Below, piece after piece: positions 4,115 through 20,698 of a stretch of 52,555 nt of DNA. The stretch is from Nitrospirota bacterium (GTDB lineage Bacteria; Nitrospirota; Nitrospiria; 2-01-FULL-66-17): the NCBI GenBank assembly GCA_040757335.1, contig JBFLXB010000025.1, positions 1-52,555 of the forward strand, given 5' to 3'. The stretch's first letter is position 1. Each line of letters opens with the position of its first letter. Under the pieces are notes generated by a model. The model had not been told where the DNA came from, made no database searches, and saw only the letters and a list, made by a program, of their open reading frames with translations. The position numbers and the translations under genes are program-made.

Positions 4115-7100
4115 TTGGCACAGTTCTTCATCGCGTTCATGGTTTTTGCTGGATGGGCCATGAGTCCTGGCACGGCGCGCGCCCAGCAGCCCGCCATCGA
4201 CGCTGGTCTGGCCTACCTGCGCGCGGCGCAACTGCCAACTGGCGCATGGGTGGCTAGCGTGGAGGCGGAAACGCAGACCACTGCGGCGGCCGCCCGGGCC
4301 TTTCAGGTTTTAGGTGCGTCAGAGCCGGCGGTGACGAGCGCCGTCGCGTGGCTGACGGCGCAGTCCTTTGAATCGGTGGAAGACCGGGCAAACCAGGCCG
4401 AGGTGCTAGCGGCTTCCCAAGCCGATGTGTCGACTGCCGTTGCCACGCTGAAGGTCTTGCAGCAGGTCGAGGGTGGGTGGGGAGCAGACGTGACCAACGT
4501 GTTCCCTAATGAGGTTGTTGATACGCTGGCCGTGCTGCGCGCGCTGAGCGCGGCGGGTGCGGCGGATTCGGCCACCGTCGCACGGGCGTTGGGCTATTTG
4601 TTGGATGCCCAGAATGCCGACGGCGGCTGGGGCGCGGCGCGGGGGCGGGCCAGCGAGGTGTTCTATGCCGCGCAGGCGGTGCTCGTGCTCGCCGAGTTTC
4701 GCTCGACGTTCCAGCTCAACGGTTCGCTGCAATCGGCGAGTGCGTTTCTCGTTGCCCAGCAACATCCCGACGGCACCTTTGGCGAGCCGAGCGGCACGAC
4801 GTTTGAGACCGCGCTTGCGCTGCAGGCCTTGGCGCGGTCGATCGTGGACCCGGCCCCCAGCCAACGGGCCATCACAGCGCTCCTGGCGAGCCAGGCTGCC
4901 AATGGGAGCTGGGGCGACGATGCCTACTCTACGGCACTGGCCATTCGGGCGTTGGCCGATATCAAGCCCAACCTGCTCGTCGGCGCGGCGACGCTTTCGG
5001 CCATACCAGCGACCCCGCAAGACGGCCAGGCTGTGACCCTCACCATCCCGGTGCACAACACCGGGTTACAAGACGCCAGCAACGTGCTCGTCCGGTTCTT
5101 CCTCGGCGATCCCAACGCCGGCGGCGCGCAGATCGGGACGGATCAGATCATCGGATCGATCCCTTCAGGTGGTTCGGCGCCAGCATCCATCACCCACACG
5201 TTTACCGGCACGGGCGGCCGCACCATCTTCGTCCAAGTCGATCCGGCCAATGCCATCGCCGAAACGTCCGAAGGTGACAACCTCACCCCCAGCCGCCTCT
5301 GGGTGGCCACTCCGCCGGATCTCGTGCTCTTCACTGCGGACATCGTGCCTGCGACCTTCACCCCGGTACCCGGTACCGCCTTTGCTCTGGAATACACCGT
5401 GCGTAACCTGGGCGAGGCGGGCACTGGGCCATTGACCGTGGCCGTGTACGACGGCAATCCGAGTGCGGGTGGGGTATTGCTCACGACTCAAGAACTCTCA
5501 AGTGTCAGTGGGGCGGGGAGTCGGACTAGTACGGTGGGCATCACGCTGACTTCGGCGGTGGCGCACACGTTGTATGTTGTCGCGGACTCCACCAACCAGA
5601 TCACCGAGTCGTCCGAGACCAACAACCAGGCCTCGGTCACCGTGCAAGTCGGCGCCACGCCCATGGCCGCGGACCTCGCGGTCACGCCGATGGACATCAC
5701 CTTGAACCCGCCCAGGCCGCAGAGCGGTGAGAGCGTGCAAGTCACGGCGCGGTTCCGCAACGAAGGCACCGAAGTCGCGAGCACTGTCACGGTCGAACTG
5801 TTCGACGGCGCGCCGGAATCGGGCGGAACGCTGCTCACGAGCGAGACACGGACGCTGGTGCCGGGCGAAGAGCAGACCCTCACCGCGACCTGGACCGCCA
5901 CAGCCGGGATTCATGACCTCTACGTGGTGCTGGATCGGGCCAACCAACTCGTCGAGATCACGGAGACCAACAACCAGGCGGTCCTGCGTGTCATGCCCGA
6001 TTTGGTCGACCTCCTGGTCTCGGCCACGGACCTGGCCTTTACGCCAAGCCATCCCGTGATCGGCGATCTGGTGACTTTCACCGCCACGGTGCGCAACCTC
6101 GGCATCCGAGAGAGCGGCGCGTTCAGCGTGGCGCTCTACGACGGCGATCCGGCCAGCGGCGGCCTGCTCCTGCAGACGTATCCCGCGCCCAACCTGCTGG
6201 GCGACGCCAACACCACCGTGACGTACACCTTCACCGCCGAAGCCCGCACGTATCGCTTCTACGTAGTGGCAGACGCGGACGGCCAGGTCACCGAGCTGGA
6301 CGAGGGCAACAACCAGGCCATGCGCTCGCTGCGCATCAAAGCCCCGGGCGAAATTCTGGGACCGGATCTCATCGCGCTGAAGATCGATGTCGAAAACGCG
6401 ACCACTGACAACCAGACCCTGGCCATCAGCGGCAGTGTCTTGGTGACCGTGCAGAACACGGGCGACGCCAAGATCACCACGCCGTCCTCGGTTCTGATCT
6501 TCGACGACACGGACTTCGACAGCCGCTACACCGCGGGCGTGGATACGCTCCTCGGCACCGCGGGCGCGACCCAGACCCTCTGGCCCGAGGGCGCGACATT
6601 GGTAACCGTGCCGCTGGCCGGCGCGGTCCGCTTCCTGGACGCGCCGCTGCACGTCCTGGTGGACGCGAACGATGCCTTGGCCGAGACCGACGAGACCAAC
6701 AATGTGATGCGCTCGGGCACGGACTGCGACGTGCGACCGGCGCAGCCGATCCAGCCGGTGGTGGAGTGGAAGTGGCGGGGAGCGGTTGGAAACGATTTCA
6801 ATTCGACCGGGATCACCATGCCGCCAGCGATCGTGAACCTCACAGATGATAACGGCGATGGGCGGATCGATAACACGGACATTCCCGACCTGTCGTTCAT
6901 CGCCAGCACCGATCCTCAGGGACGCGGGACGCTCCGGGCATTGCGCGGCGACACCGGGGCGCAACTCTTTGCTGTGCGGGATCCAGATCATGCGCCGTAT
7001 TACATCGGGTCCCTGGCCTCCGGGGATTTAGATGGGGACGGGCTAGTCGAGTTGGTGACGTCCAAAGTAGGGGCGCCTGGGCTGCTTGCCTTTGAACACG

Positions 7101-10100
7101 ACGGGACCCTGAAATGGGACAATGCGGCTCTGGTCGCGGCCTGGAATCAATCGCATCTGTTCCAGCAGGTCACGACAAACACAAACGGCACGCCATTGCT
7201 GGCCGATGTCGACGCGGATGGCATCCCGGAGATCGTGATGGGCGGGAGCATCATCAACGCCGACGGCTCCATCCGATGCGTGCGCGACGCCCAGTCAGGC
7301 GGTGGCGTCGGATCTGCCGGTTGGTATGGGCCCAGTCTTGCGGATCTGGATGGCGATGGACGCCAGGAGATCGTGACCGGCAATACCGCGTATCGGCCCG
7401 ACTGTACGATCCTGTGGCGGAATACCAGCCTCCCGGACGGGCTGACCGCCATCGCCAATTTCGATGACGATGCCGCTCCGGAAGTCGTCATGGTTACGTA
7501 CGCAACGATCGTGGGACAACCTGCCGGGGGCAAAGTGTTTCAGTTGGAGCACGACGGCACGATCCGCTGGGGGCCGGTGACGCTCCGGGGCCTGGAACCC
7601 ACGGCCCAGGCTGCCGGACTGGGGGGAGTACCGGTCGTGGCGGATTTCAATGGAGACGGGCGACCCGATATCGGCGTAAGCGGTCACGATCGCTATTTTG
7701 CGCTCGATGCGGACGGCCTCGTGGTCGCAAGTTATCCGGCTCCGTATAACCAAGGATTCGGGGACGGATTCTACTCAGCGCCGACGGTGTTCGATCTCAA
7801 CGGGGACGGCCGGCCCGAGGTCCTGATGAACAAGAACGGCTATTTCCGGATCTTCGACGGCCCCAGCGGGACCCTGCTCTACGAAGAGCGCTTTGGGGCG
7901 GCGTTCAATAGCTATCAGAACGTGGTGATCGCGGACGTGGACGGCGATCAGCAGGCCGAGGCCGTGGCGTTCGGTTTCGGGTGGTCCTTCAGCGGCGACG
8001 GGCTGCGCGTCTACGGCGCCGCCGGGAACGATTGGGTGCCCACCCGCCGGATTCGCCATCAGCCCGACTATCACGTCACCAACGTCCACGACGACGGCAC
8101 CATCCCATCGTACGAAGCCCCGAGCTGGCTGGTGCACAACACCTACCGTGTCCAGGCGCCGGTCGGCGAGGTCACGAATCCGTACGTGGCCCCCAATCTG
8201 ACCGCCTCGTACCTGCGCGCAGTGCAAACCAGCACAGGCGTGACGCTGACCGTGCGTATCGGCAACGGCGGGGCCGTGTCTGCGGCCTCGGGCACGGTCG
8301 TCGCCTTCTACGACGGCGATCCCGAGGCGGGTGGCGTGCTCATCGGCACGGGCCAGACCACGCGGGCCTTGGCGCCTGGCGACTATCAGGACATCTTCTT
8401 CGCATGGACTGGGGCGAGCGTGGGGGAACGGACGCTCGTGGCGGTGGTGGATCCGAACGGCACGCGACCGGACTGCGACGTGACGGACAACCGCGCGAGC
8501 CTGAATACCACAATCGTTTCCATTCTGCCTGACCTGAGCATCACCGGGAGCGACGTGCAGGCGTTGGGGGCGCTCTCTGAGGGCCGCCTCATCCCGGTGC
8601 GCGTGACCGCGCACAACCCAGGCGGGGCGGATGCGCCGAGTACAGCGGTTCGCGTGACCCTGGGCGATCCCACGCAGGGCGGCTTGGAGCTAGGCCGAGC
8701 CACACTGCCGGCCCTGGCTGCTGGCGCGAGCGCCACGGTGGACGTCATGTGGGACAGCCTGGGCGCGACCGGCACGAACTACCTCTACGCCCAGGTGGAT
8801 CCCGATCAGACGGTCAGCGAAGCGACCACCGCCAACAACACGGCGCTCATTGCCGTGGACCTGGCTGCCCCGGCGCAGCCTGATCTGACCATCGCGCAGG
8901 TCGCGGTCTCTTTGCCCACCGTCCCTGAGGGTGAGGCCCTGACGGTCACGGCTCACGTGACGAACCGCGGCGCGGACGTGGGAGGCGCGCAGGTGGCGCT
9001 GTCCCTGGGCGATCCCGCCGCGGGCGGCGTCAGCCTGGGCATGGCGTCCATTCCCACCATCCTGGCGCATGGCCAGGCCACGACCGTGACCTGGTCGGTC
9101 GAGACGCTGGGCCGATCGGGTAGCCACGAACTGGTCGCTCTCGCTGACCCCGGCGCCACGATCCCGGAGCTCGATGAGAGCAACAACCAGGGCACGGCGA
9201 CCGTCACGGTCCTGCCCAGCGGGCTCGCTGCGGTCGTCAGCACCAACCAGCCGTCGTACACCGCAAACGAGACCGCAACGATTACCGTAACCCTGTACAA
9301 CTCAGGGCCCGCGCGCGCCGTGGATCTGGAGGTGATCGCCGAAGATACGTCGGGTGTCCTGGTGCAGACCGTGACCGATCAGGTCGGGCTGGCCCTGGGC
9401 GACGCTGAAACGCGGGTCATCACCGGCCTGACGTTTGGCACCGGCAACACGTTCGCGGGCCCCTACCGGGTCCGGGCGCGCGCGCGCGAGGCCGGCGCGG
9501 TGGTGGCCGAGGCGACGAGCGCCTTCACCATCCTTCCGGTGGTGCAGGCCGAGGCGCGGCTGGTCGCGGACAAACAAGCCTACTCCGCGCACGAACCCGT
9601 CACCCTCACTACGACCGTGACCAGCCAGAGCCCCAACCACGTGCTGACCGGCGTGACCGCGACCATCACTGTGACCGATCCCAGCAGTGCGGTCCTTTTC
9701 ACCGAGACACGATCAGTCCTGGATCTGCTGCCCGAGGCCCGTATCGAGCTCAAGAGCTCCGTCGACACCGGCACGCACCCCGCCGGGCTGTACACCGCCT
9801 CGCTCGCGGTCCAGGGCGCGGACGGCTTATCGGCTGCAAGCCAGGCCGCGTTTGAAATCCTCTCCAGCGTGGCCCAGGCCGCGGCCCTGGCGGGAACCCT
9901 CGACGTCACGCCGCACACGATCATCGAGACCGAGCACACGACCCTGACGTACTCCATCCAAAACATCGGCAATGAGATCGATCTGCCGCTGATCCAGACG
10001 GAGGTGCTGGTCGTGGATCCGGACACCGAAACGGCCGTACGCACCATCACCGGTGAGGCGTCCCTCAACGGCCGGGAAGTCTATGAGACCTCCATTGCGT

Positions 10101-10933
10101 TCGAGAGCGCGGGCCTACTGCCCAAGGCGTACCTGATCGTGCTGCGCGGCACCACCGCGGGGGTGACCCAGTCGCTGGCGAGCGCGGGACTCACGATCGA
10201 GCCCAGCCCCAACACCGCGCCCACCGCGGAGGCGGGACCGGATCAGGTCGGGTACGTGGGGCAGTCGATCGCCTTGGACGGGACCGGGAGCAGCGATCCG
10301 GACAATGATCCGCTAACCTACGCGTGGCGATTCGTTGCGATTCCGACGGCGAGCCAACTCACGGATGCGTCGCTGGCCGGCGCCGCCACGCCCACGCCGT
10401 CGTTCGTGCCGGATGCGGACGGCACGTATGAGCTCGGACTGATCGTGCATGACGGCACGGTGTCGAGTCCGGAGGACCGCGTCTTCGCGTTCGTCAATCC
10501 GCCGGTCGAGGTGGACCTGCATCCGGAGACCATCAACCTCAAGAGCCAGGGCGGATCGAAATCATTGACCGCGGAGTTGGAGTCCTATGTGCTGTCCGCG
10601 TTCGCGCCGTTGACCGCGCCCGACAGCGTCACGGTGACCGCCTCGTTCGAGTTGACCATCCAGTACGTGGACGCGGCGGGCCAGACCGTGGTCTTCACCA
10701 TTCCGAACGAAGAGTACCCCGGCGACGATCGGGTCGAGGCGGAGGACGAAGACCAAAACGGAATCGCGGACGAGTACGAACTGACGCTCAAGTTCCCGCG
10801 CAGCCTGTTTGTCGCGGGCTTCACCGATGCCCAGGGGGCGCTCCGGATCACCGAGCACACCGAGGTGACCGCCACCCTGATCGGGAACGGCCTGGTGATC
10901 GGCCGGGATACGGCTCGGGTGCTCCCTCCGTAG
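4115..10933 (+). CDS. Giant exported repeat protein: prenyltransferase-like + CARDB + FG-GAP/VCBS
   Basis: The 2272-residue product starts with a signal-like stretch ending in ARAQ-QPA. TTG 4115 gives the full signal; ATG 4139 is an alternative and neither has a strong ribosome site. Domains by residue: 26-290, alpha-toroid repeats like squalene cyclase/prenyltransferase (ADGGWG, PDGTFG, ANGSWG); 290-870, five CARDB adhesion repeats; 880-1340, FG-GAP/VCBS repeats with Ca-binding motifs (DLDGDGLVE, DVDADGIPE, DLDGDGRQE, DFNGDGRPD, DLNGDGRPE); 1360-1700, three more CARDB repeats; 1706-2030, Ig-like beta region; 2033-2128, PKD/cadherin-like (NTAPTAEAGPDQ, DPDNDPLTYAW); then a C-terminal beta domain. 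No sorting motif or transmembrane anchor is visible. Probably a secreted or surface adhesin-like protein; no enzyme activity can be assigned. Confidence 0.85.
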   Translation: MAQFFIAFMVFAGWAMSPGTARAQQPAIDAGLAYLRAAQLPTGAWVASVEAETQTTAAAARAFQVLGASEPAVTSAVAWLTAQSFESVEDRANQAEVLAASQADVSTAVATLKVLQQVEGGWGADVTNVFPNEVVDTLAVLRALSAAGAADSATVARALGYLLDAQNADGGWGAARGRASEVFYAAQAVLVLAEFRSTFQLNGSLQSASAFLVAQQHPDGTFGEPSGTTFETALALQALARSIVDPAPSQRAITALLASQAANGSWGDDAYSTALAIRALADIKPNLLVGAATLSAIPATPQDGQAVTLTIPVHNTGLQDASNVLVRFFLGDPNAGGAQIGTDQIIGSIPSGGSAPASITHTFTGTGGRTIFVQVDPANAIAETSEGDNLTPSRLWVATPPDLVLFTADIVPATFTPVPGTAFALEYTVRNLGEAGTGPLTVAVYDGNPSAGGVLLTTQELSSVSGAGSRTSTVGITLTSAVAHTLYVVADSTNQITESSETNNQASVTVQVGATPMAADLAVTPMDITLNPPRPQSGESVQVTARFRNEGTEVASTVTVELFDGAPESGGTLLTSETRTLVPGEEQTLTATWTATAGIHDLYVVLDRANQLVEITETNNQAVLRVMPDLVDLLVSATDLAFTPSHPVIGDLVTFTATVRNLGIRESGAFSVALYDGDPASGGLLLQTYPAPNLLGDANTTVTYTFTAEARTYRFYVVADADGQVTELDEGNNQAMRSLRIKAPGEILGPDLIALKIDVENATTDNQTLAISGSVLVTVQNTGDAKITTPSSVLIFDDTDFDSRYTAGVDTLLGTAGATQTLWPEGATLVTVPLAGAVRFLDAPLHVLVDANDALAETDETNNVMRSGTDCDVRPAQPIQPVVEWKWRGAVGNDFNSTGITMPPAIVNLTDDNGDGRIDNTDIPDLSFIASTDPQGRGTLRALRGDTGAQLFAVRDPDHAPYYIGSLASGDLDGDGLVELVTSKVGAPGLLAFEHDGTLKWDNAALVAAWNQSHLFQQVTTNTNGTPLLADVDADGIPEIVMGGSIINADGSIRCVRDAQSGGGVGSAGWYGPSLADLDGDGRQEIVTGNTAYRPDCTILWRNTSLPDGLTAIANFDDDAAPEVVMVTYATIVGQPAGGKVFQLEHDGTIRWGPVTLRGLEPTAQAAGLGGVPVVADFNGDGRPDIGVSGHDRYFALDADGLVVASYPAPYNQGFGDGFYSAPTVFDLNGDGRPEVLMNKNGYFRIFDGPSGTLLYEERFGAAFNSYQNVVIADVDGDQQAEAVAFGFGWSFSGDGLRVYGAAGNDWVPTRRIRHQPDYHVTNVHDDGTIPSYEAPSWLVHNTYRVQAPVGEVTNPYVAPNLTASYLRAVQTSTGVTLTVRIGNGGAVSAASGTVVAFYDGDPEAGGVLIGTGQTTRALAPGDYQDIFFAWTGASVGERTLVAVVDPNGTRPDCDVTDNRASLNTTIVSILPDLSITGSDVQALGALSEGRLIPVRVTAHNPGGADAPSTAVRVTLGDPTQGGLELGRATLPALAAGASATVDVMWDSLGATGTNYLYAQVDPDQTVSEATTANNTALIAVDLAAPAQPDLTIAQVAVSLPTVPEGEALTVTAHVTNRGADVGGAQVALSLGDPAAGGVSLGMASIPTILAHGQATTVTWSVETLGRSGSHELVALADPGATIPELDESNNQGTATVTVLPSGLAAVVSTNQPSYTANETATITVTLYNSGPARAVDLEVIAEDTSGVLVQTVTDQVGLALGDAETRVITGLTFGTGNTFAGPYRVRARAREAGAVVAEATSAFTILPVVQAEARLVADKQAYSAHEPVTLTTTVTSQSPNHVLTGVTATITVTDPSSAVLFTETRSVLDLLPEARIELKSSVDTGTHPAGLYTASLAVQGADGLSAASQAAFEILSSVAQAAALAGTLDVTPHTIIETEHTTLTYSIQNIGNEIDLPLIQTEVLVVDPDTETAVRTITGEASLNGREVYETSIAFESAGLLPKAYLIVLRGTTAGVTQSLASAGLTIEPSPNTAPTAEAGPDQVGYVGQSIALDGTGSSDPDNDPLTYAWRFVAIPTASQLTDASLAGAATPTPSFVPDADGTYELGLIVHDGTVSSPEDRVFAFVNPPVEVDLHPETINLKSQGGSKSLTAELESYVLSAFAPLTAPDSVTVTASFELTIQYVDAAGQTVVFTIPNEEYPGDDRVEAEDEDQNGIADEYELTLKFPRSLFVAGFTDAQGALRITEHTEVTATLIGNGLVIGRDTARVLPP

Positions 10934-12655: not shown

Positions 12656-14182
12656 ATGACCCCTCTTGAGCGCAAGGTTCAAGAACTCACCTGTTTGTAC
12701 GAGGTGGCGCGTGCGCTCGCCACCTCGCTCGATATCAGAGAAACGAGCAGCGAGGTGCTTCGAATCCTCGGCACCGTGCTCGGCACGACGCGGGGGGCGC
12801 TCGCCCTGCACGACCCGGGGACCGATGACCTCGTGATTACCGCCGCATACGGGCTGACGGATGAGGAGATGGCGCGTGGACGCTTCAAACCCACCGAAGG
12901 CGTGACCGGGGCGGTGTTTACCGCGGGTGAGCCCATGATCGTGCCCGACCTCGGAAAGGAACCATTGTTCCTCAACCGGACGCAATCGCGGGCTGATCTG
13001 TCTAAACTCGCGCTGGTGGCGGTGCCGGTCCAGGCGCAAGGAGAAACCCTCGGGGTGCTCAGCGTGGATCGGCCGGCCCCGGACCCCACGGTCAGCTTGG
13101 ACGAGGACGTGCGGGTCCTCACCGTGGTGGCATCGCTCATCGGGCAGGCCGCCAAACTCCAGCGCGTGGTTGACGACGAGCGCCGCAAACTCGAGGCGAT
13201 GAATCTCTCCCTGCAACACCAGTTGCAGGCCAAATACCGTTCGTCGCCCATTGTCGGGCGCAGCCCCGCCATGGTCGAGGTGTTCGAGGCGATCGAAAAG
13301 GTGGGCGGGAGCCGGGCCACGGTGCTGCTGCTCGGGGAGAGCGGAACTGGCAAGGAACTCATCGCCCGCGCCGTTCACTACAACAGCCCGCAAGCCGACG
13401 GCCCCTTTGTCACGCTCAACTGCGCGGCGTTGCCCGAGAACCTCATCGAGAGCGAGTTGTTCGGACACGAAAAAGGCGCGTTCACCGGCGCTACCGCGCT
13501 GCGCAAGGGACGGTTCGAGCTCGCGGACGGCGGGACACTGTTCTTGGACGAGATCGGCGAGCTGCCGCTGGCCATGCAGTCCAAGCTGCTGCGGGTGTTG
13601 CAGGAACGCACGTTCGAGCGGGTCGGCGGCAACCGACCGATGACGGTGCAGGTCCGCCTGATCGCCGCCACCAACCGGGACCTGGAACGCGCGGTGGCCG
13701 AGGGATCGTTCCGCGAGGACCTGTACTACCGGTTGAAGGTGGTGCCGATTCGCGTGCCTCCGTTGCGCGAACGCAAGGAAGATATCCCGCTGCTGGTCGA
13801 CCATTTCTTAAAGCGCCTGCGGCAGGAACACCAGAAACCCACCACGATCATGCCTGACGCGTTGGCGCGTCTGGTCGAACACCATTGGCCGGGGAACGTC
13901 CGCGAGTTGGAGAACACGTTGGAGCGGATGGTCATCATGGGGCGGCAACCGCAAATCACGCTGCAGGATGTGATAGCGGTGGTCGGGGAGCGAAGGCGGT
14001 CGTCATCCGCCGGCGCTGAGGGGGATGCCTCGCTGACCTCCTCGGTCGAAGAGTTGGAGCGACAACAAATCGTGAAAGCCATGGAAGAGGCCAAGGGCGT
14101 GCAGGCGAAAGCCGCGAAATCGCTCGGCATCACCCCGCGGCAATTGGGATATCGGCTCAGAAAGTACGGCCTGGCCTCATAG
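12656..14182 (+). CDS. Sigma-54-dependent transcriptional activator with GAF sensor
   Basis: The 508-residue product has three parts. Residues 1-165 form a GAF-type sensor domain. The AAA+ domain (about 195-425) has Walker A GESGTGKE, the sigma-54 contact loop GAFTGA, Walker [15 protein letters not shown] and the arginine-finger region [10 protein letters not shown]...[11 protein letters not shown] Fis-type helix-turn-helix lies at the end ([22 protein letters not shown]). The order GAF-AAA-HTH is that of NifA/FhlA-type activators and lacks a phospho-receiver. It follows glnA, which hints at nitrogen regulation, but no clear -24/-12 site was found nearby, so the target is unknown. Confidence 0.92.
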
Positions 14183-14394: not shown

Positions 14395-14712
14395 ATGCAC
14401 CGATACGATCTGGTGGTCAAGCGGGTCACGTCGTCCGGAGTGGTGGTCAGCTGCAAGGCCTGCAAGATTCGGCACGCCGCGCGCCTCGGCCCATGGGACC
14501 CTACGGAAACAGAGGGGGCGACTCGTCCCGCCACGGAGGAAGCCATTGAGCTGATCACATGTGCGACGGATCACCTGGCGGCGGTCTCGGTGCAGACCGT
14601 TGACGTCCAGCGCGACTGTTTGGAGATCGCGTGTCGCCAGTGCCGCAACGCCCGACCGTTCCGCATCCTCGAATGTGTGACACGCTCGCTGAGCGGCGGG
14701 AGCGGCTTGTGA
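14395..14712 (+). CDS. Small protein with two CxxC motifs
   Basis: The 105-residue product has CKAC near residue 20 and CRQC near residue 84, a spacing that suggests one zinc site joined by a helical middle. Not a family I recognise. The start is uncertain: ATG 14395 gives a compact domain (MHRYDLVVKRV), while ATG 14350 adds 15 residues; neither has a good ribosome site. The stop overlaps the GTG start of the FmdE gene (GTGA, 14709-14712), so the two are translationally coupled and probably work together. Confidence 0.6.
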   Translation: MHRYDLVVKRVTSSGVVVSCKACKIRHAARLGPWDPTETEGATRPATEEAIELITCATDHLAAVSVQTVDVQRDCLEIACRQCRNARPFRILECVTRSLSGGSGL

Positions 14713-15320
14713 GCGAGGCGCCACCCGATTCCGAGTTCGACGCCGTGGTCGCGTTTCACGGCCACCTCTGTCTGGATATCGCGATGGGGTACCGCGTCGC
14801 CAAAGCCGCGCTCCGCGAGTTATCCTGTGAGCGGCCGCGCGACGAGGAACTGGTGGCCATCGTGGAAAACGATTCTTGCTCGGTGGACGCGGTCCAGGCC
14901 GTAACGGGCTGTACGTTCGGTAAGGGGAATCTCGTGTACCGTCCGTACGGCAAAGCGGCCTATACGTTCGTGGACCGCCGGTTCGGCCGCTCCGTTCGAA
15001 TCTATTGCCATTTTTGGGAAACCTTTGACCGCGGAGAAGGCGTAGCCTTTACCGCCTTGATGAACCGGGTACTGGCGGGTGGGGCGTCGCGAGCCGAACA
15101 GGAGCGCTTCGGGCGCGAGATGACCAACCTGTCCCACCAAGTCCTGGCTCTGCCGGAACGCGACCTGTTCTCGGTGTCTCCCGTCGCGGTGCCGCCTCCG
15201 CCCGGAGCCAGGATTTTCGCGTCTGCGGCGTGCGAGCGCTGCGGGGAATGGACGATGGAAACTCGTCTCGGCACGGTCGACGGAAAACGGCTGTGCCCGC
15301 CCTGCCGTGGCGACGCCTGA
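14709..15320 (+). CDS. FmdE-family protein with C-terminal zinc ribbon
   Basis: The 203-residue product begins at GTG 14709 (GGGAG 7 nt upstream; ATG 14673 is the alternative). The N-terminal two-thirds match the FmdE family linked to formylmethanofuran dehydrogenase: VVAFHGHLCLDIAMGYRV, ENDSCSVDAVQAVTGCTFGKGN and VYRPYGKAAYTF. The conserved His and Cys residues are present. The end is a zinc ribbon, CERC...CPPC. No methanofuran enzyme gene is nearby. In bacteria the family is of uncertain role, with suggested links to molybdenum/tungsten enzymes. Coupled to the upstream CxxC protein. Confidence 0.8.
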   Translation: MSEAPPDSEFDAVVAFHGHLCLDIAMGYRVAKAALRELSCERPRDEELVAIVENDSCSVDAVQAVTGCTFGKGNLVYRPYGKAAYTFVDRRFGRSVRIYCHFWETFDRGEGVAFTALMNRVLAGGASRAEQERFGREMTNLSHQVLALPERDLFSVSPVAVPPPPGARIFASAACERCGEWTMETRLGTVDGKRLCPPCRGDA

Positions 15321-15544: not shown

Positions 15545-18067
15545 ATGATGGGAGAGAAAAACATCGTTCATCGCAAGCGACCACGCGCTATGGTCTGGTA
15601 CGAGGCCGTCCCAAGTTTGGGATGGAGCCTGGTCGCCGGAGTGTTTGTTATCGCGGTCTTCCTTGTCCCGGTCGGCATGACAGTGTGGGGCGCGGACTCG
15701 ACGAGTCCGTCCGCCAGCGAGTTCTGGCGATCGGCATTGATGGGCGGTCCGGTGACGCTGCTCGACGTGGTGGTGTCTGGGGTGGCGTTAGCGGCCCTGC
15801 TGATCCTCGTGGCCCGGTATCGCGGACCATCACGGCTGCAATGGGTGATTGTCGCGATCAGCCTCGTCTTGAGCGTCCGCTATCTGGTCTGGCGTGGCCT
15901 CTATACGCTCAATACCGAGGAGCCGATTGGTCTCGGTTTAAGTCTCACGTTGTTCTTGGCCGAACTCTATGGATTCGGGGGGACCCTATTCTTCTATCTG
16001 CAGATTCTCAAACCCACTCAACGCACGATCCCTCCGGTCGACGTAGATCGCTGTCCTTCCGTGGACGTCTTCGTCACGATTTTTGATGAACCCGTTGAAG
16101 TGCTCAGACGTACGTTGGTCGCTTGCCTGGCCATGGAATACCCGGCCGACCGAAGGAAGATCTATGTCCTGGACGACGGCGGACGTCAAGAGACTCGCCT
16201 GCTGGCCGCATCGTTAGGGTGCGTCTATCTGAGTCGATCGACCCGCGTTCACGCCAAGGCCGGTAATTTGAACCACGCATTGGCACAGTCGGCCGGTGAA
16301 ATCGTGGTCACGTTCGATACCGACCACATTCCGGTCCGGACGTTCCTGAAAGAAACGTTGGGTGCGTTCGATGACCCCAAGGTCGCATTCGTCCAGACGC
16401 CGCATCACTTCTCCAACCCGGATATCTTCCAACGCAATCTTCGCCTGGAGGACAAACTCGTCAATGAGCAGGATCTGTTTTTCCGCGTGGTCCAGCCGGG
16501 ACGAGACGGCCGTAACTCTGCGTTTTACACGGGAAGCGGCGGGATATTTCGGCGGCGGTATCTAGAGGAGATCGGGGGATTTGCGACGGACTCGGTGACC
16601 GAGGACATCCATACGAGCCTCTTGCTTCACGCCAAAGGATACCGGTCGATCTATTTCAACAAGGTCCTGACGTCCGGTCTCGCTCCCGAAACATACACCA
16701 GTTTCCTGACACAACGTCAACGATGGGCTCGCGGAGCGTTTCAGATTTTCCTGTCGCGGCACAACCCGCTGCTGATTCGAGGACTCACGCTCGTCCAACG
16801 CATCGATTACTTCGCCTCGATGTACTACTTCCTGCATGGACCGGCTCGGTTGGTGTACATTGCGGCCCCTTTGGCGCTGCTCCTGTTCGGGCAGTACATC
16901 ATCTATGCCGATCCGCTCACGCTGCTGACCCTTTATCTGACTGCATACGTGGGAACTCTGGTGGCGTTCTCCGCCATGACGCGGGGTTTCTGCAACCCGT
17001 TCTGGGCCGACGTCTATGAAACCGTGATGTCGTTTTACTTGACAGGGACGCTGATTGGATCGGTTCTGTTCAGGCGCAGGTCGGTGTTCCACGTCACCCC
17101 CAAGGGGATCCGCTCGTCGCGATCGGTCTTTCGCTTTCTGCCGAGTCTCCCATACATCGTTCTAACCGGGGCGTTGGCCGCTGGTATCGGCTTTGGCCTG
17201 GTCGAGCTCTTCAAATGGCGTGCGGCTGACTCGGCGATCGTGGTCAGTCTATTGTGGGCCGGATACAATCTACTCGTGTGCGCCGCGGCTGCCGCCGTCG
17301 CTCGCGAGAGGCCGCAGCGCCGGACCGCACCCAGGTTGGAGCGAGAGTTTTCGTGTGAACTCCTAGCGGACAGCGTTGTTCTGCCGGCCCGGGTGGTCGA
17401 TCTGAGCGAAGCAGGAATCCGTCTCCTCCATAGTCAACCACGTTCTCTTCCTGAAGCGGTGGAAGTTAGATTAATCGACGCCGCCGGCGAGCGGACCGCG
17501 GTCAGCGGGCGTGTGGTTCGCAACGACTTGTTGGACAAGCAGCGGGCGATCGTGGGAATTGAGTTCCGAGAGCTCTCTGAATCACAATTGCGACACGTGA
17601 TTCTCCAGATGTACAGCGATCCAGGAATATGGGCAGGGCGCCCGCACGTCGACACGAGTGCGTGGAGATCGTTCCTCTGGCTCGGAACCTCGCTGTTCCA
17701 CGCCTTCGGCCGCGACATCCAATCGTTCCGTCGGCGAGATCCTCGAAGCCCAGTGGAGATTCCGTGTGAAGTGATATCACGAGACATGGTGCTCTCAGGA
17801 GCCACAGAGAATATCAGCGAAGCGGGGCTCCTCATTCGACTCCGAGATCTGACCGGGTCCGTTCCCGAGGTCTGTTCCGTCCGGTTGATCCCGGGCTCCG
17901 ACGTGCTGACGCTTCGAGGGCGAATCGTGTGGAAAGCTCCGAAGGGTCTGCCTGTGCGCGCAGGCGTCCAACTCGAAGAGCGGGTGAGTCCCTTTCTCTT
18001 GAGCTGGATCGAATTTGCCAAATCGTCCCGATCCGGGGTCGGCGGCGGGGGCGCGTTCGTAGGCTGA
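15545..18067 (+). CDS. bcsA: Cellulose-synthase-like glycosyltransferase with two PilZ domains
   Basis: The 840-residue inner-membrane protein has N-terminal membrane segments and then a family-2 glycosyltransferase domain with VFVTIFDEPVE, LDDGG, FDTDHIP, TEDIHTSLL (catalytic TED) and QRQRWARGAF (QxxRW). More membrane helices follow, then a PilZ domain (about 593-690, RTAPRLEREF...DLSEAGIRLL). A second PilZ-like domain lies at about 729-830 (RRRDPRSPVEIPCEV...NISEAGLLIRL). PilZ binds cyclic-di-GMP and switches on BcsA; a second copy is unusual. bcsB, bcsZ and bcsC are absent here, so the product may be a cellulose-like beta-glycan. Genes for an exported protein and a radical-copper oxidase follow. 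Confidence 0.9.
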   Translation: MMGEKNIVHRKRPRAMVWYEAVPSLGWSLVAGVFVIAVFLVPVGMTVWGADSTSPSASEFWRSALMGGPVTLLDVVVSGVALAALLILVARYRGPSRLQWVIVAISLVLSVRYLVWRGLYTLNTEEPIGLGLSLTLFLAELYGFGGTLFFYLQILKPTQRTIPPVDVDRCPSVDVFVTIFDEPVEVLRRTLVACLAMEYPADRRKIYVLDDGGRQETRLLAASLGCVYLSRSTRVHAKAGNLNHALAQSAGEIVVTFDTDHIPVRTFLKETLGAFDDPKVAFVQTPHHFSNPDIFQRNLRLEDKLVNEQDLFFRVVQPGRDGRNSAFYTGSGGIFRRRYLEEIGGFATDSVTEDIHTSLLLHAKGYRSIYFNKVLTSGLAPETYTSFLTQRQRWARGAFQIFLSRHNPLLIRGLTLVQRIDYFASMYYFLHGPARLVYIAAPLALLLFGQYIIYADPLTLLTLYLTAYVGTLVAFSAMTRGFCNPFWADVYETVMSFYLTGTLIGSVLFRRRSVFHVTPKGIRSSRSVFRFLPSLPYIVLTGALAAGIGFGLVELFKWRAADSAIVVSLLWAGYNLLVCAAAAAVARERPQRRTAPRLEREFSCELLADSVVLPARVVDLSEAGIRLLHSQPRSLPEAVEVRLIDAAGERTAVSGRVVRNDLLDKQRAIVGIEFRELSESQLRHVILQMYSDPGIWAGRPHVDTSAWRSFLWLGTSLFHAFGRDIQSFRRRDPRSPVEIPCEVISRDMVLSGATENISEAGLLIRLRDLTGSVPEVCSVRLIPGSDVLTLRGRIVWKAPKGLPVRAGVQLEERVSPFLLSWIEFAKSSRSGVGGGGAFVG

Positions 18068-18175
18068 TTGTGAAGCAGGGTGCTGGGGTGGGACGGGGCC
18101 TGTGCAATGGCGGTGAGCGTCGCGAACATGCGCAGGCTCGCGATGCCAACGGATGGACCATTTGGAGGTACACAC

Positions 18176-18604
18176 GTGATATGGCGTACCAGTATTAGAC
18201 CGCTCGTGGTCAGCTTGGTGGTTATTATGATGGGCACTGTTGCTGGTGGGATGAGGTCGGCATTCGGTTTCGAGGGCCTACCGGGTTCTACATGGGGCCA
18301 AGCCTCGTATGAAAAAGCCGACATTGCGGGACCCGGTATCATAGGCTACGTCAATCAAGGGATCGACTGGACCACGTTGCCTGGAGACTTGAAGGTGAAT
18401 ACGTTCGCGGAACTGCGGTACCGGTTTCGAGAAAACAACAAGGAGTTCTATAACGCCTACGGACCAGCACTCGGTGCGGAACTCCGTCGCTCGCCGTGGC
18501 ATCTTGGCGTGGACTACTATTGGGAGCAATATCCGGAATTGGAGGAACGTTCCAACAGGTTTCAATTTTATCTGAGGTGGTACCACGACTGGAATCTGAA
18601 GTGA
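18176..18604 (+). CDS. Exported small beta-rich protein of the glycan locus
   Basis: GTG 18176 is chosen because GGAGG lies 7 nt upstream (18164-18168). The 142-residue product begins with a signal peptide (IRPLVVSLVVIMMGTVAGG). The rest has alternating aromatic beta-strands (NTFAELRYRFREN, ALGAELRRSPWHLGVDYYW, RFQFYLRWYHDWNLK), which could be a small outer-membrane or periplasmic beta structure. Family not recognised. It sits between bcsA and the oxidase on the same strand, so a role in export or modification of the glycan is inferred from position alone. Confidence 0.7.
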   Translation: MIWRTSIRPLVVSLVVIMMGTVAGGMRSAFGFEGLPGSTWGQASYEKADIAGPGIIGYVNQGIDWTTLPGDLKVNTFAELRYRFRENNKEFYNAYGPALGAELRRSPWHLGVDYYWEQYPELEERSNRFQFYLRWYHDWNLK

Positions 18605-18688
18605 CGATGACTCCACCCGACTCATCCAGCCCCGCCTCTTGAACAGAACCGCGATCCATCCAACCAATTCAGTGACACAGAGACTCCC

Positions 18689-20158
18689 ATGAACAAAGCT
18701 TGCGTGCGCGCGGTTGTGTGTCTGATCGGCGTCCTCATGCATGCCTGTGCCGGCGATGGATCAGACGTGGACGCGGACCCGCGAGGGACCGTTGGCGAGT
18801 GGAGTCCGGTCCTTGATGCGCAGGTACTTCCTATCGACATGCACGCGCTTCCCACCGGGGAAGTCATGTATTGGCAGAGAGGCGACATCGGAGATCCCTA
18901 TCCACGCCTGTGGAATCCGACGACAGGAACAATCAGAACCGCGACTCCTCCAGGATACGATATCTTCTGCAGCGGCCATTCCTTCTTGGCCGATGGGAAC
19001 TTGCTTGTCACGGGCGGACACATTTCGGATTTGGTCGGTCTCCAAAAGGCTGGTATGTATAATCCGTTTACAGATTCGTGGATACCCCTTCCCGATATGA
19101 ATGCTGGTCGTTGGTATCCCACGAACACCACACTGGCAAACGGCGACGTGCTCGTGGTGTCAGGGGAAATTACCGATGTCCCGTCGCGAGTTGTGAACGA
19201 ATTGCCCCAGGTGTGGCAACCGGCGAGCGGTACATGGAGGGACCTCAGCACAGCCCAGTTGCCGCTCCCCTTGTATCCATTCATGTACCTAGCCTCGGTC
19301 GGATGGGTGTTCAACGCGGGTCCGAACCAGATCACCCAGTACCTCGATACCTCCGGGACTGGGCAATGGATTCCCGTTGCGGAGAACAACTACGGTGCGC
19401 GGTTTGAAGGATCGTCCGTGATGTACGACGACGGCAGGGTTCTCGTCGTCGGCGGCGATGACGACGAAGAAGGTCCGCATGCGCCGACAAGTACGGCCGA
19501 AATCATCGACCTCAATGTGCCGTCTCCCGCGTGGCGATACGTCGCTCCAATGGCGTACCCGCGGAAATATCATACGGCCACGATCCTTCCGGACGGTCGG
19601 GTGTTGGTAACGAGCGGGACGATGTCAGGAGATTTCAACAACGCGACCGGCGCGGTGCACGCCGCGGAGTTGTGGGATCCGCAGACTGAGACGTGGACCC
19701 TTCTCGCGGAGATGCAGGAGAGTCGGGTGTATCACTCGAACGCCTTGCTTCTGCCGGACGGACGGGTATTGGTCGGAGGGGGAGGGCAACCGACGTCGTC
19801 GGGAGAGGCGCATGCGCATCCCACCTTTGAAATATTTTCGCCACCCTATCTTTTTAAAGGGAAGCGGCCGACCATCGGCGCAACTCCCTCAGCCGTGACG
19901 TACGGTGAAAAGTTCTTCGTGGAGACCTCGGTTGCCGTTGAGATCGAGAACGTCCATTGGATACGACTCCCCTCGGTGACCCACGGGTTCGATCAGAATC
20001 AACGGATCAACCGCTTGTCATTTTCTCAGACAGCAGGGGGATTGCAGGTTGCCGTGCCCTCGAACAGGAACCTGGCGCCTCCGGGGCACTACATGTTATT
20101 CATTCTCACCAAGCAGGGGGTCCCATCGGAAGGGCGGATCATACAAATCACGGTGTAG
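18689..20158 (+). CDS. Galactose-oxidase-like radical-copper oxidase, lipoprotein
   Basis: The 489-residue product has a lipobox (VLMHAC) after a short signal, then kelch-type blades and a C-terminal early-set domain (DUF1929) from about residue 385. Residues matching the galactose oxidase copper site are all visible: the Cys that would form the Tyr-Cys cofactor (DIFCSGHS), its Tyr (RWYPTN), the adjacent Tyr-His (RVYHSNALLLPDGRV) and the late His (VTHGFDQNQR). It is therefore probably an active copper-radical oxidase of sugars or alcohols. In Streptomyces the related GlxA works with the cellulose-synthase-like CslA; the gene order here suggests an analogous partnership. Confidence 0.85.
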   Translation: MNKACVRAVVCLIGVLMHACAGDGSDVDADPRGTVGEWSPVLDAQVLPIDMHALPTGEVMYWQRGDIGDPYPRLWNPTTGTIRTATPPGYDIFCSGHSFLADGNLLVTGGHISDLVGLQKAGMYNPFTDSWIPLPDMNAGRWYPTNTTLANGDVLVVSGEITDVPSRVVNELPQVWQPASGTWRDLSTAQLPLPLYPFMYLASVGWVFNAGPNQITQYLDTSGTGQWIPVAENNYGARFEGSSVMYDDGRVLVVGGDDDEEGPHAPTSTAEIIDLNVPSPAWRYVAPMAYPRKYHTATILPDGRVLVTSGTMSGDFNNATGAVHAAELWDPQTETWTLLAEMQESRVYHSNALLLPDGRVLVGGGGQPTSSGEAHAHPTFEIFSPPYLFKGKRPTIGATPSAVTYGEKFFVETSVAVEIENVHWIRLPSVTHGFDQNQRINRLSFSQTAGGLQVAVPSNRNLAPPGHYMLFILTKQGVPSEGRIIQITV

Positions 20159-20278: not shown

Positions 20279-20698
20279 GTGACCGGCCCCGGCCCTTCCG
20301 ATCGCGTCCGACCGTCGTGGCTTGGCTACAAACCCGAGCCGACCGGAGCGGTGAGACGGGTGATTCGAGCCCTCGGTTTCTCAATCGATGGCCTCAAGGC
20401 GACGTGGAGGACCGAATGGGCCTTTCGCGTCGATCTGGTGGTGTTCGTCGCGTTTGCTCCACTCGCGCTGTGGCTGGGGCGCAGTGGCGTTGAGCGCGCG
20501 CTGCTCGTCGGCAGCTTATTTCTCGTTCTGATCGCCGAGTTGGTTAATTCGGGGATCGAAGCGGTGGTGGACCGCATCGGACCGGATCGCCACGAACTCT
20601 CCAAGAAAGCCAAAGACGTGGGGTCCGCCATTGTCTTGGTCGCGCTGGTCAACGCGGGACTCGTGTGGTTGCTGATCCTGGTTGAACGGTTTCTCTGA
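20279..20698 (+). CDS. dgkA: Diacylglycerol kinase
   Basis: The 139-residue membrane protein phosphorylates diacylglycerol, or undecaprenol in Gram-positives. It has three hydrophobic helices and the family motif AELVNSGIEAVVDRIG followed by LSKKAKDVGSAIVL. Relative to E. coli DgkA it has an extended polar N-terminus of about 25 residues. GTG 20279 is the only good upstream start, but its ribosome site is weak. Follows the glycan locus by 120 bp. Confidence 0.9.
   Translation: MTGPGPSDRVRPSWLGYKPEPTGAVRRVIRALGFSIDGLKATWRTEWAFRVDLVVFVAFAPLALWLGRSGVERALLVGSLFLVLIAELVNSGIEAVVDRIGPDRHELSKKAKDVGSAIVLVALVNAGLVWLLILVERFL

Follow-up and report, generated by a model that had tools for sequence, protein, structure and literature searches.

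What does a cellulose-type synthase of the cyclic-di-GMP (c-di-GMP)-controlled kind have to do with a copper radical oxidase encoded beside it, with one small gene in between? The question is raised by a 52,555-nt contig of a Nitrospirota bacterium (JBFLXB010000025.1, assembly GCA_040757335.1; hereafter the window), whose genome (G000) comprises 3.56 Mb and is 99% complete. The locus encodes, in order, a BcsA-type glucan synthase, a small exported protein that we call mid, and the oxidase. The original prediction saw here a mirror of the CslA-GlxA pair of Streptomyces that might make and oxidize a new beta-glycan. Comparison with related genomes showed that the conserved unit is bcsA-bcsG-mid, not bcsA-oxidase, a core that the prediction had overlooked, as it had the standing of mid as a predicted outer-membrane channel. 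We consider this module, and the barrel family that mid represents, more interesting than the CslA-GlxA parallel, which is weak. The reading that we favor, and to which we would give roughly an even chance, is a derived bcs operon: a BcsB-less, c-di-GMP-controlled beta-glucan synthase with export through a mid barrel, in which C6 phosphoethanolamine decoration was exchanged for presumed C6 oxidation.

The neighborhood of the synthase gene

The first gene was correctly predicted to encode a BcsA-like synthase with two PilZ domains. E. coli BcsA (7lby) was its best match in the PDB (E 9e-119). The GT2 motifs DDG, FDTDH, VTED and QRQRW and the gating loop FHVTPKG were all intact, and RxxxR and [D/N]xSxxG were kept in both PilZ domains; the TIGR03030 score (582.5 bits) lies below the equivalog cut-off of 699.1. 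Support likewise extended to the claim of a bcsB-less glycan synthase locus of the c-di-GMP type, with a radical copper oxidase among its genes, in a diderm phylum.

We compared this neighborhood with those of 78 relatives, for which open reading frames were called with a simple script of our own and which include some incomplete metagenome-assembled genomes. The gene bcsG (PF11658) lay exactly between a two-PilZ bcsA and mid in G001, G007, G011, G012, G015 (as a fragment) and G022, all of them from other genera, and the three BcsG proteins scored with TIGR03368 were all above its cut-off. In G001, a genome of the same family (BcsA 71% identical to that of the window; sister in the tree, support 100/100), the order is glutamine synthetase, sigma-54 activator, a small hypothetical gene, bcsA, bcsG, mid, dgkA and an mtnA-type gene. 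The window keeps this order, except that a short gap replaces bcsG and the oxidase gene lies between mid and dgkA (Table 1); its few extras relative to G001 include an FmdE-type gene before bcsA and mscL after dgkA. We found no convincing promoter or terminator splitting the genes of the locus, and no Rfam element between positions 14100 and 20800.

Table 1. Features of the synthase-oxidase locus, in window coordinates
Feature	Position	Strand	Basis
BcsA-type glucan synthase (GT2), two C-terminal PilZ domains, 840 aa	15545..18067	+	TIGR03030, PF07238 (2 stretches), 7lby match
108-bp gap where relatives hold bcsG (about 1.5 kb)	18068..18175	+	Comparison with G001, G007, G011, G012, G015, G022
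mid: small exported protein of beta-barrel type with 6 strands, predicted to be the exit component in the outer membrane	18176..18604	+	AlphaFold2, gene context
Secreted copper radical oxidase (AA5-like: kelch propeller + galactose-oxidase-like E-set), 489 aa	18689..20158	+	PF07250, PF09118, 9g8h match
DgkA-type diacylglycerol kinase	20279..20698	+	PF01219, 118 bits (109 bits in G001)

The whole G000 genome contained no bcsG. Loss of the gene in G000 is a simpler account than its repeated gain elsewhere, because bcsG and mid are found together in different families and phyla. BcsB was likewise found nowhere in G000, and no protein passed the BcsB family cut-off in any of the 16 genomes checked, bcsA-bcsG-mid relatives among them. 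One BcsB hit in G000 (C2, 19 bits) was rejected, as its frame encodes an M1-peptidase-like protein with a HEILHNWWG motif. As predicted, the cluster contained no homolog of bcsB, bcsC or bcsZ. The genome also has a second synthase locus (G000:C22; L081:10064-13534 and 8471-10048), which encodes a 1156-aa protein that fuses GH8 (BcsZ-like), BcsA and PilZ and, after it, a TPR protein whose BCSC_C match is marginal. BcsA also matched frames of comparable length (1130-1180 aa) in several other relatives. As read from the sequence, then, gene content, motifs, the lack of bcsG and BcsB and the association of bcsA, bcsG and mid are the fixed points of the argument.

Like the type II bcs system of E. 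coli (BcsA, B, Z, C and G; phosphoethanolamine cellulose), the window has a BcsA with PilZ, and its relatives have a true BcsG, with decoration expected at C6. It differs from that system in having no BcsB, BcsC or BcsZ in the locus, in the loss of BcsG, and in the predicted mid barrel in BcsC's stead. The dgkA gene may preserve a trace of the former state. BcsG transfers phosphoethanolamine onto the C6 hydroxyl of glucose and frees diacylglycerol (PMC11379886); mcr-3, the gene of another phosphoethanolamine transferase, is known to have dgkA as a neighbor (PMC7559476); and genes for lipid kinases (DAGK_cat/YegS_C) directly follow bcsG in L118 (3009-4010) and L183 (10357-11253). For these reasons we infer that the window's dgkA is probably a relic of a phosphoethanolamine-transferase locus. 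Diacylglycerol kinases at loci that hold, or derive from loci that held, bcsG are consistent with recycling of the diacylglycerol that the transfer frees.

mid as a possible half-barrel

The prediction of an exported, beta-rich protein between synthase and oxidase was borne out, as mid carries a signal peptide and is all-beta. Its start is the GTG at 18176; GGAGG stands upstream, so the beginning of the longest open reading frame, at 18080, is probably over-long. The sequence matched nothing in Pfam, NCBIfam, PHROGs or the PDB, and neither TPR nor BCSC_C matches were found in it; a weak GH8 match (E 0.006) was discarded. AlphaFold2 modeled six strands, most of them amphipathic, with a predicted local distance difference test score (pLDDT) of 90. 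For a homolog with two copies in one chain (L068), twelve strands were modeled (pLDDT 85), and a Foldseek search with this model gave 54 PDB matches at E <= 0.001. Among the matches listed, all were outer-membrane barrels, including autotransporter domains, NanC, the oligogalacturonate porin VhGalP, the polysaccharide secretin 4y25 (PgaA-type) and BcsC (6tzk). The modeling thus predicts an outer-membrane barrel of 12 strands for the two-copy form. One six-stranded copy does not suffice to close a normal barrel of that size, so that a homodimer of two six-stranded halves would be the natural proposal for the single-copy form.

To place mid in a wider context, profile searches covered 396 evenly sampled Nitrospirota genomes and 345 genomes of a second phylum, that of a Geobacter-titled record (G410). 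The family was found in 22 of the former and 3 of the latter, and also in records titled Deltaproteobacteria, Geobacter, Nitrospinota and Elusimicrobia. By our own count in the fetched neighborhoods, bcsA stood beside mid in 18 of the 22 Nitrospirota genomes. Among the other four, another GT2 gene adjoined mid in two weak members, and a PMT-like gene did so in a third, located where its contig ends; the mid of G133 had no recognized glycan gene in reach. The second phylum and named metagenome-assembled genomes likewise showed mid associated with bcs genes. A single copy, with one match per genome, was present in G000, G001, G004, G008, G009, G016, G085 and G121; otherwise two copies occurred in tandem.

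The gene orders around mid varied. We observed bcsA-B-Z-G-mid in L155, L182 and L163 (in the last, bcsZ and bcsG read as disrupted), bcsA-mid followed by a DSP-like phosphatase gene in L066 and L067, and mid-BcsB-GH10 in L120. In L160 and L183, the order was bcsA-x-B-Z-(TPR+mid+mid)-G, with the fusion in the bcsC slot. Fusion of mid to TPRs was seen only in these two and in L118/L184; the TPR-rich proteins, each ending in two mid copies, are at L160:6587-9775, L183:5871-8744 and L118:3-1361, the last at the contig start, before bcsG. We read them as putative alternative BcsC proteins in bcsA-B-Z-(TPR+mid+mid)-bcsG operons. The order bcsA-PMT-like-mid-bcsG was assigned to L157, L162 and L166, with a PMT_2 match that passes in L162 only. 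Genes for PMT/ArnT-like polyprenyl-sugar transferases adjoin mid at L162:7168-8580, L164:5995-7413 and L072:6278-7891; those of L162 and L072 separate mid from bcsA. This suggests another tailoring option.

Like BcsC and PgaA, mid is a predicted outer-membrane barrel, with structural matches to both and a TPR-fused form in the bcsC slot. It differs from them in showing no sequence similarity, in its unit of 6 strands used once or twice (12) where they have 16, and in usually lacking TPRs. The family is apparently undescribed, judging by the four sequence resources named above bar the PDB and a limited search of the open-access literature, which also yielded no description of a bcsA-mid-oxidase locus. 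Tentatively, we propose that mid defines a new family of channels through which glycans cross the outer membrane, with a six-stranded half-barrel as the unit. This unit would form a pore as a homodimer when single, within one chain when in tandem, and would re-create BcsC when fused to TPRs. The same proposal includes an exchangeable tailoring slot in bcs loci, filled by BcsG, a PMT/ArnT-like transferase, a DSP-like phosphatase or, here, an oxidase making C6-aldehyde cellulose.

The oxidase and its pairing with the synthase

The product of the third gene passed the cut-offs of PF07250 and PF09118 and was matched by galactose oxidase 9g8h at E 6e-61. Its Cys94, Tyr143, Tyr348, His349 and His432 align to C228, Y272, Y495, H496 and H581 of galactose oxidase, with Cys94-Tyr143 as the cofactor pair; the complete set of ligands claimed by the original prediction was confirmed by this alignment. 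AA5-type activity is accordingly a prediction from sequence. Galactose and glyoxal oxidases (AA5) share with it the propeller, the E-set and all five cofactor and ligand residues; it differs from galactose oxidase in having no N-terminal CBM32-like domain and in the residue at the Trp290 position. That the protein is a lipoprotein, as predicted, could not be confirmed. The signal peptide ends in LMHACAGDG, and LMHAC, with His at -2 relative to its Cys, is a poor fit to the lipobox pattern; a signal-peptidase-I (Sec) site, ACA|GDG, is as plausible. The other kelch-type matches in G000 (C3, C24 and C13) were set aside as partial, kelch-repeat-only hits, mostly in very long proteins.

Is the pairing with the synthase conserved? 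Besides G000, none of the 78 relatives had an oxidase next to bcsA. At E <= 1e-25, an oxidase was present in 18 of the 396 Nitrospirota genomes and paired with bcsA in 1 of these 18; the opened neighborhoods showed no adjacent bcsA, those of G023, G024, G069 and G359 being judged on flanks of about 1.5 kb, and the nearest case outside G000 was G045, with bcsA 20 kb from the oxidase. Neither of the two oxidase-bearing genomes among the 345 of the second phylum had bcsA nearby, and plasmid-borne homologs in Sinorhizobium, Cupriavidus and Burkholderia had no bcsA beside them. The search for BcsA-oxidase pairs in relatives thus left the order unique to G000 among the genomes searched, in which G000 alone represents its genus; such uniqueness was an outcome that the original prediction had itself named as refuting it.

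A single occurrence could mean that the gene of an unrelated secreted enzyme was inserted between mid and dgkA, and that bcsA and mid work alone. The gaps at the oxidase gene (84 and 120 bp) favor this, as does the location of its closest homologs (G375, 56% identity; G268, 49%), neither of which is near bcsA. We consider such an insertion possible, if rather doubtful, since the oxidase gene lies on the same strand within the conserved bcsA-mid-dgkA block, in a genome without the usual tailoring gene, and resembles bcsA in composition (G+C content at third codon positions, 0.68 and 0.69). Its homologs also occur in polysaccharide clusters, which argues for a glycan role: that of G268 accompanies two glycosyltransferases, a MurJ-type flippase and an O-antigen-ligase-type protein, and that of G227 lies near AlgX-like, RmlD-type and nucleotidyltransferase genes. 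The G268 gene (L105:9107-10540) encodes a free-standing copper radical oxidase, 46-49% identical, in this O-antigen/exopolysaccharide-type cluster.

Alternatively, the oxidase might act as GlxA does, replacing BcsB as a structural and catalytic partner needed for synthase activity. Like CslA-GlxA, the window has a GT2 synthase and a radical copper oxidase in one cluster without BcsB, which is absent from all of G000; GlxA is needed for CslA activity in vitro, and its domain 2 belongs to the segment that suffices to bind CslA (PMC11022532). We regard this as very improbable. Against the GlxA family (NF052501), the oxidase scored 251 bits (cut-off 800), with its best stretch at profile positions 260-645 only; because the alignment starts only at 260, the protein lacks domain 2, and there is no clear membrane anchor. 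Related bcsA-bcsG-mid loci have neither BcsB nor an oxidase, so the oxidase is not an obligatory partner as GlxA is. The window further differs from CslA-GlxA in its two full PilZ domains, the lack of a linked cslZ, the pairing that is not conserved, and its diderm setting with a predicted outer-membrane barrel. With the pairing found in no other genome, the parallel is only an analogy, and a locus that mirrors CslA-GlxA as a system is unsupported.

The glucan and its modification

A new beta-glycan was similarly unsupported. In vitro, the product of CslA-GlxA is itself cellulose (PMC11022532), and an oxidase partner therefore does not imply a new glycan; a cellulose-type glucan with changed decoration is likelier, because the mid family is tied to bcsG and, elsewhere, to full bcsA-B-Z-G loci. 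In the derived-operon reading, the ancestral form in this lineage would have been bcsA (with two PilZ domains)-bcsG-mid-dgkA without bcsB, from which G000 would have lost bcsG and gained a secreted oxidase between mid and dgkA. Binding of c-di-GMP to the PilZ domains would open BcsA, which would polymerize UDP-glucose into what we infer to be a beta-1,4-glucan and would move this glucan through the inner membrane with no help from BcsB. On the model and the gene context, the chain would leave through an outer-membrane barrel of mid subunits (2 x 6 = 12 strands), a stand-in for BcsC. The oxidase would then act on the exported chain, most simply turning the C6 hydroxyl, the position BcsG targets, into an aldehyde. 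The joint action of these proteins, like the mid dimer, is part of the proposal.

Several observations weigh against this reading. The bcsA-mid-oxidase order was seen in G000 only, the sister genome G001 being 88% complete and the genus having no second member. The substrate of the oxidase is presumed, and the position of galactose oxidase Trp290 is Ile in the window. The single-copy mid model had no significant Foldseek match, and TM-scores for the two-copy model were moderate (about 0.3-0.56), which can be expected where barrels differ in strand number. Lastly, the FFCGS position of BcsA reads FYTGS in the window (FFTGS in G001, FFAGS in most bcsG-linked relatives), a change that may allow a linkage other than that of cellulose.

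This last point, together with the lack of BcsB, would suit a synthase that makes a non-cellulose glucan, for example mixed-linkage or 1,3-linked, which the oxidase then modifies; the cellulose maker could be the second locus, with its GH8-BcsA fusion and TPR/BCSC_C protein. We think this unlikely: QxxRW, TED and the gating loop are as in BcsA, relatives carry bcsG, and complete bcsA-B-Z-G loci include members of the mid family. The N-terminus of BcsA was also considered as a docking site for BcsG and dropped, the segment being too variable everywhere to inform.

If the derived-operon reading is correct, cellulose machinery can operate with neither BcsB nor BcsC, the latter replaced by a small barrel protein, and the chemistry of the chain at one carbon, phosphoethanolamine or oxidation, can be swapped by exchange of a single gene. 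A half-barrel with natural tandem and TPR-fused forms would be a clear case for the origin of outer-membrane pores by duplication. Bacterial C6-oxidized cellulose would be chemically reactive, through aldehyde cross-links, and of practical interest.

Two further genes of the window lie upstream of the locus. Positions 14631-15320, just before bcsA, encode the FmdE-family protein, which has a C-terminal DksA-type zinc finger and is absent at the equivalent place in G001. Upstream of the glutamine synthetase gene, positions 4115-10933 encode a repeat protein of 2272 aa with an apparent signal sequence.

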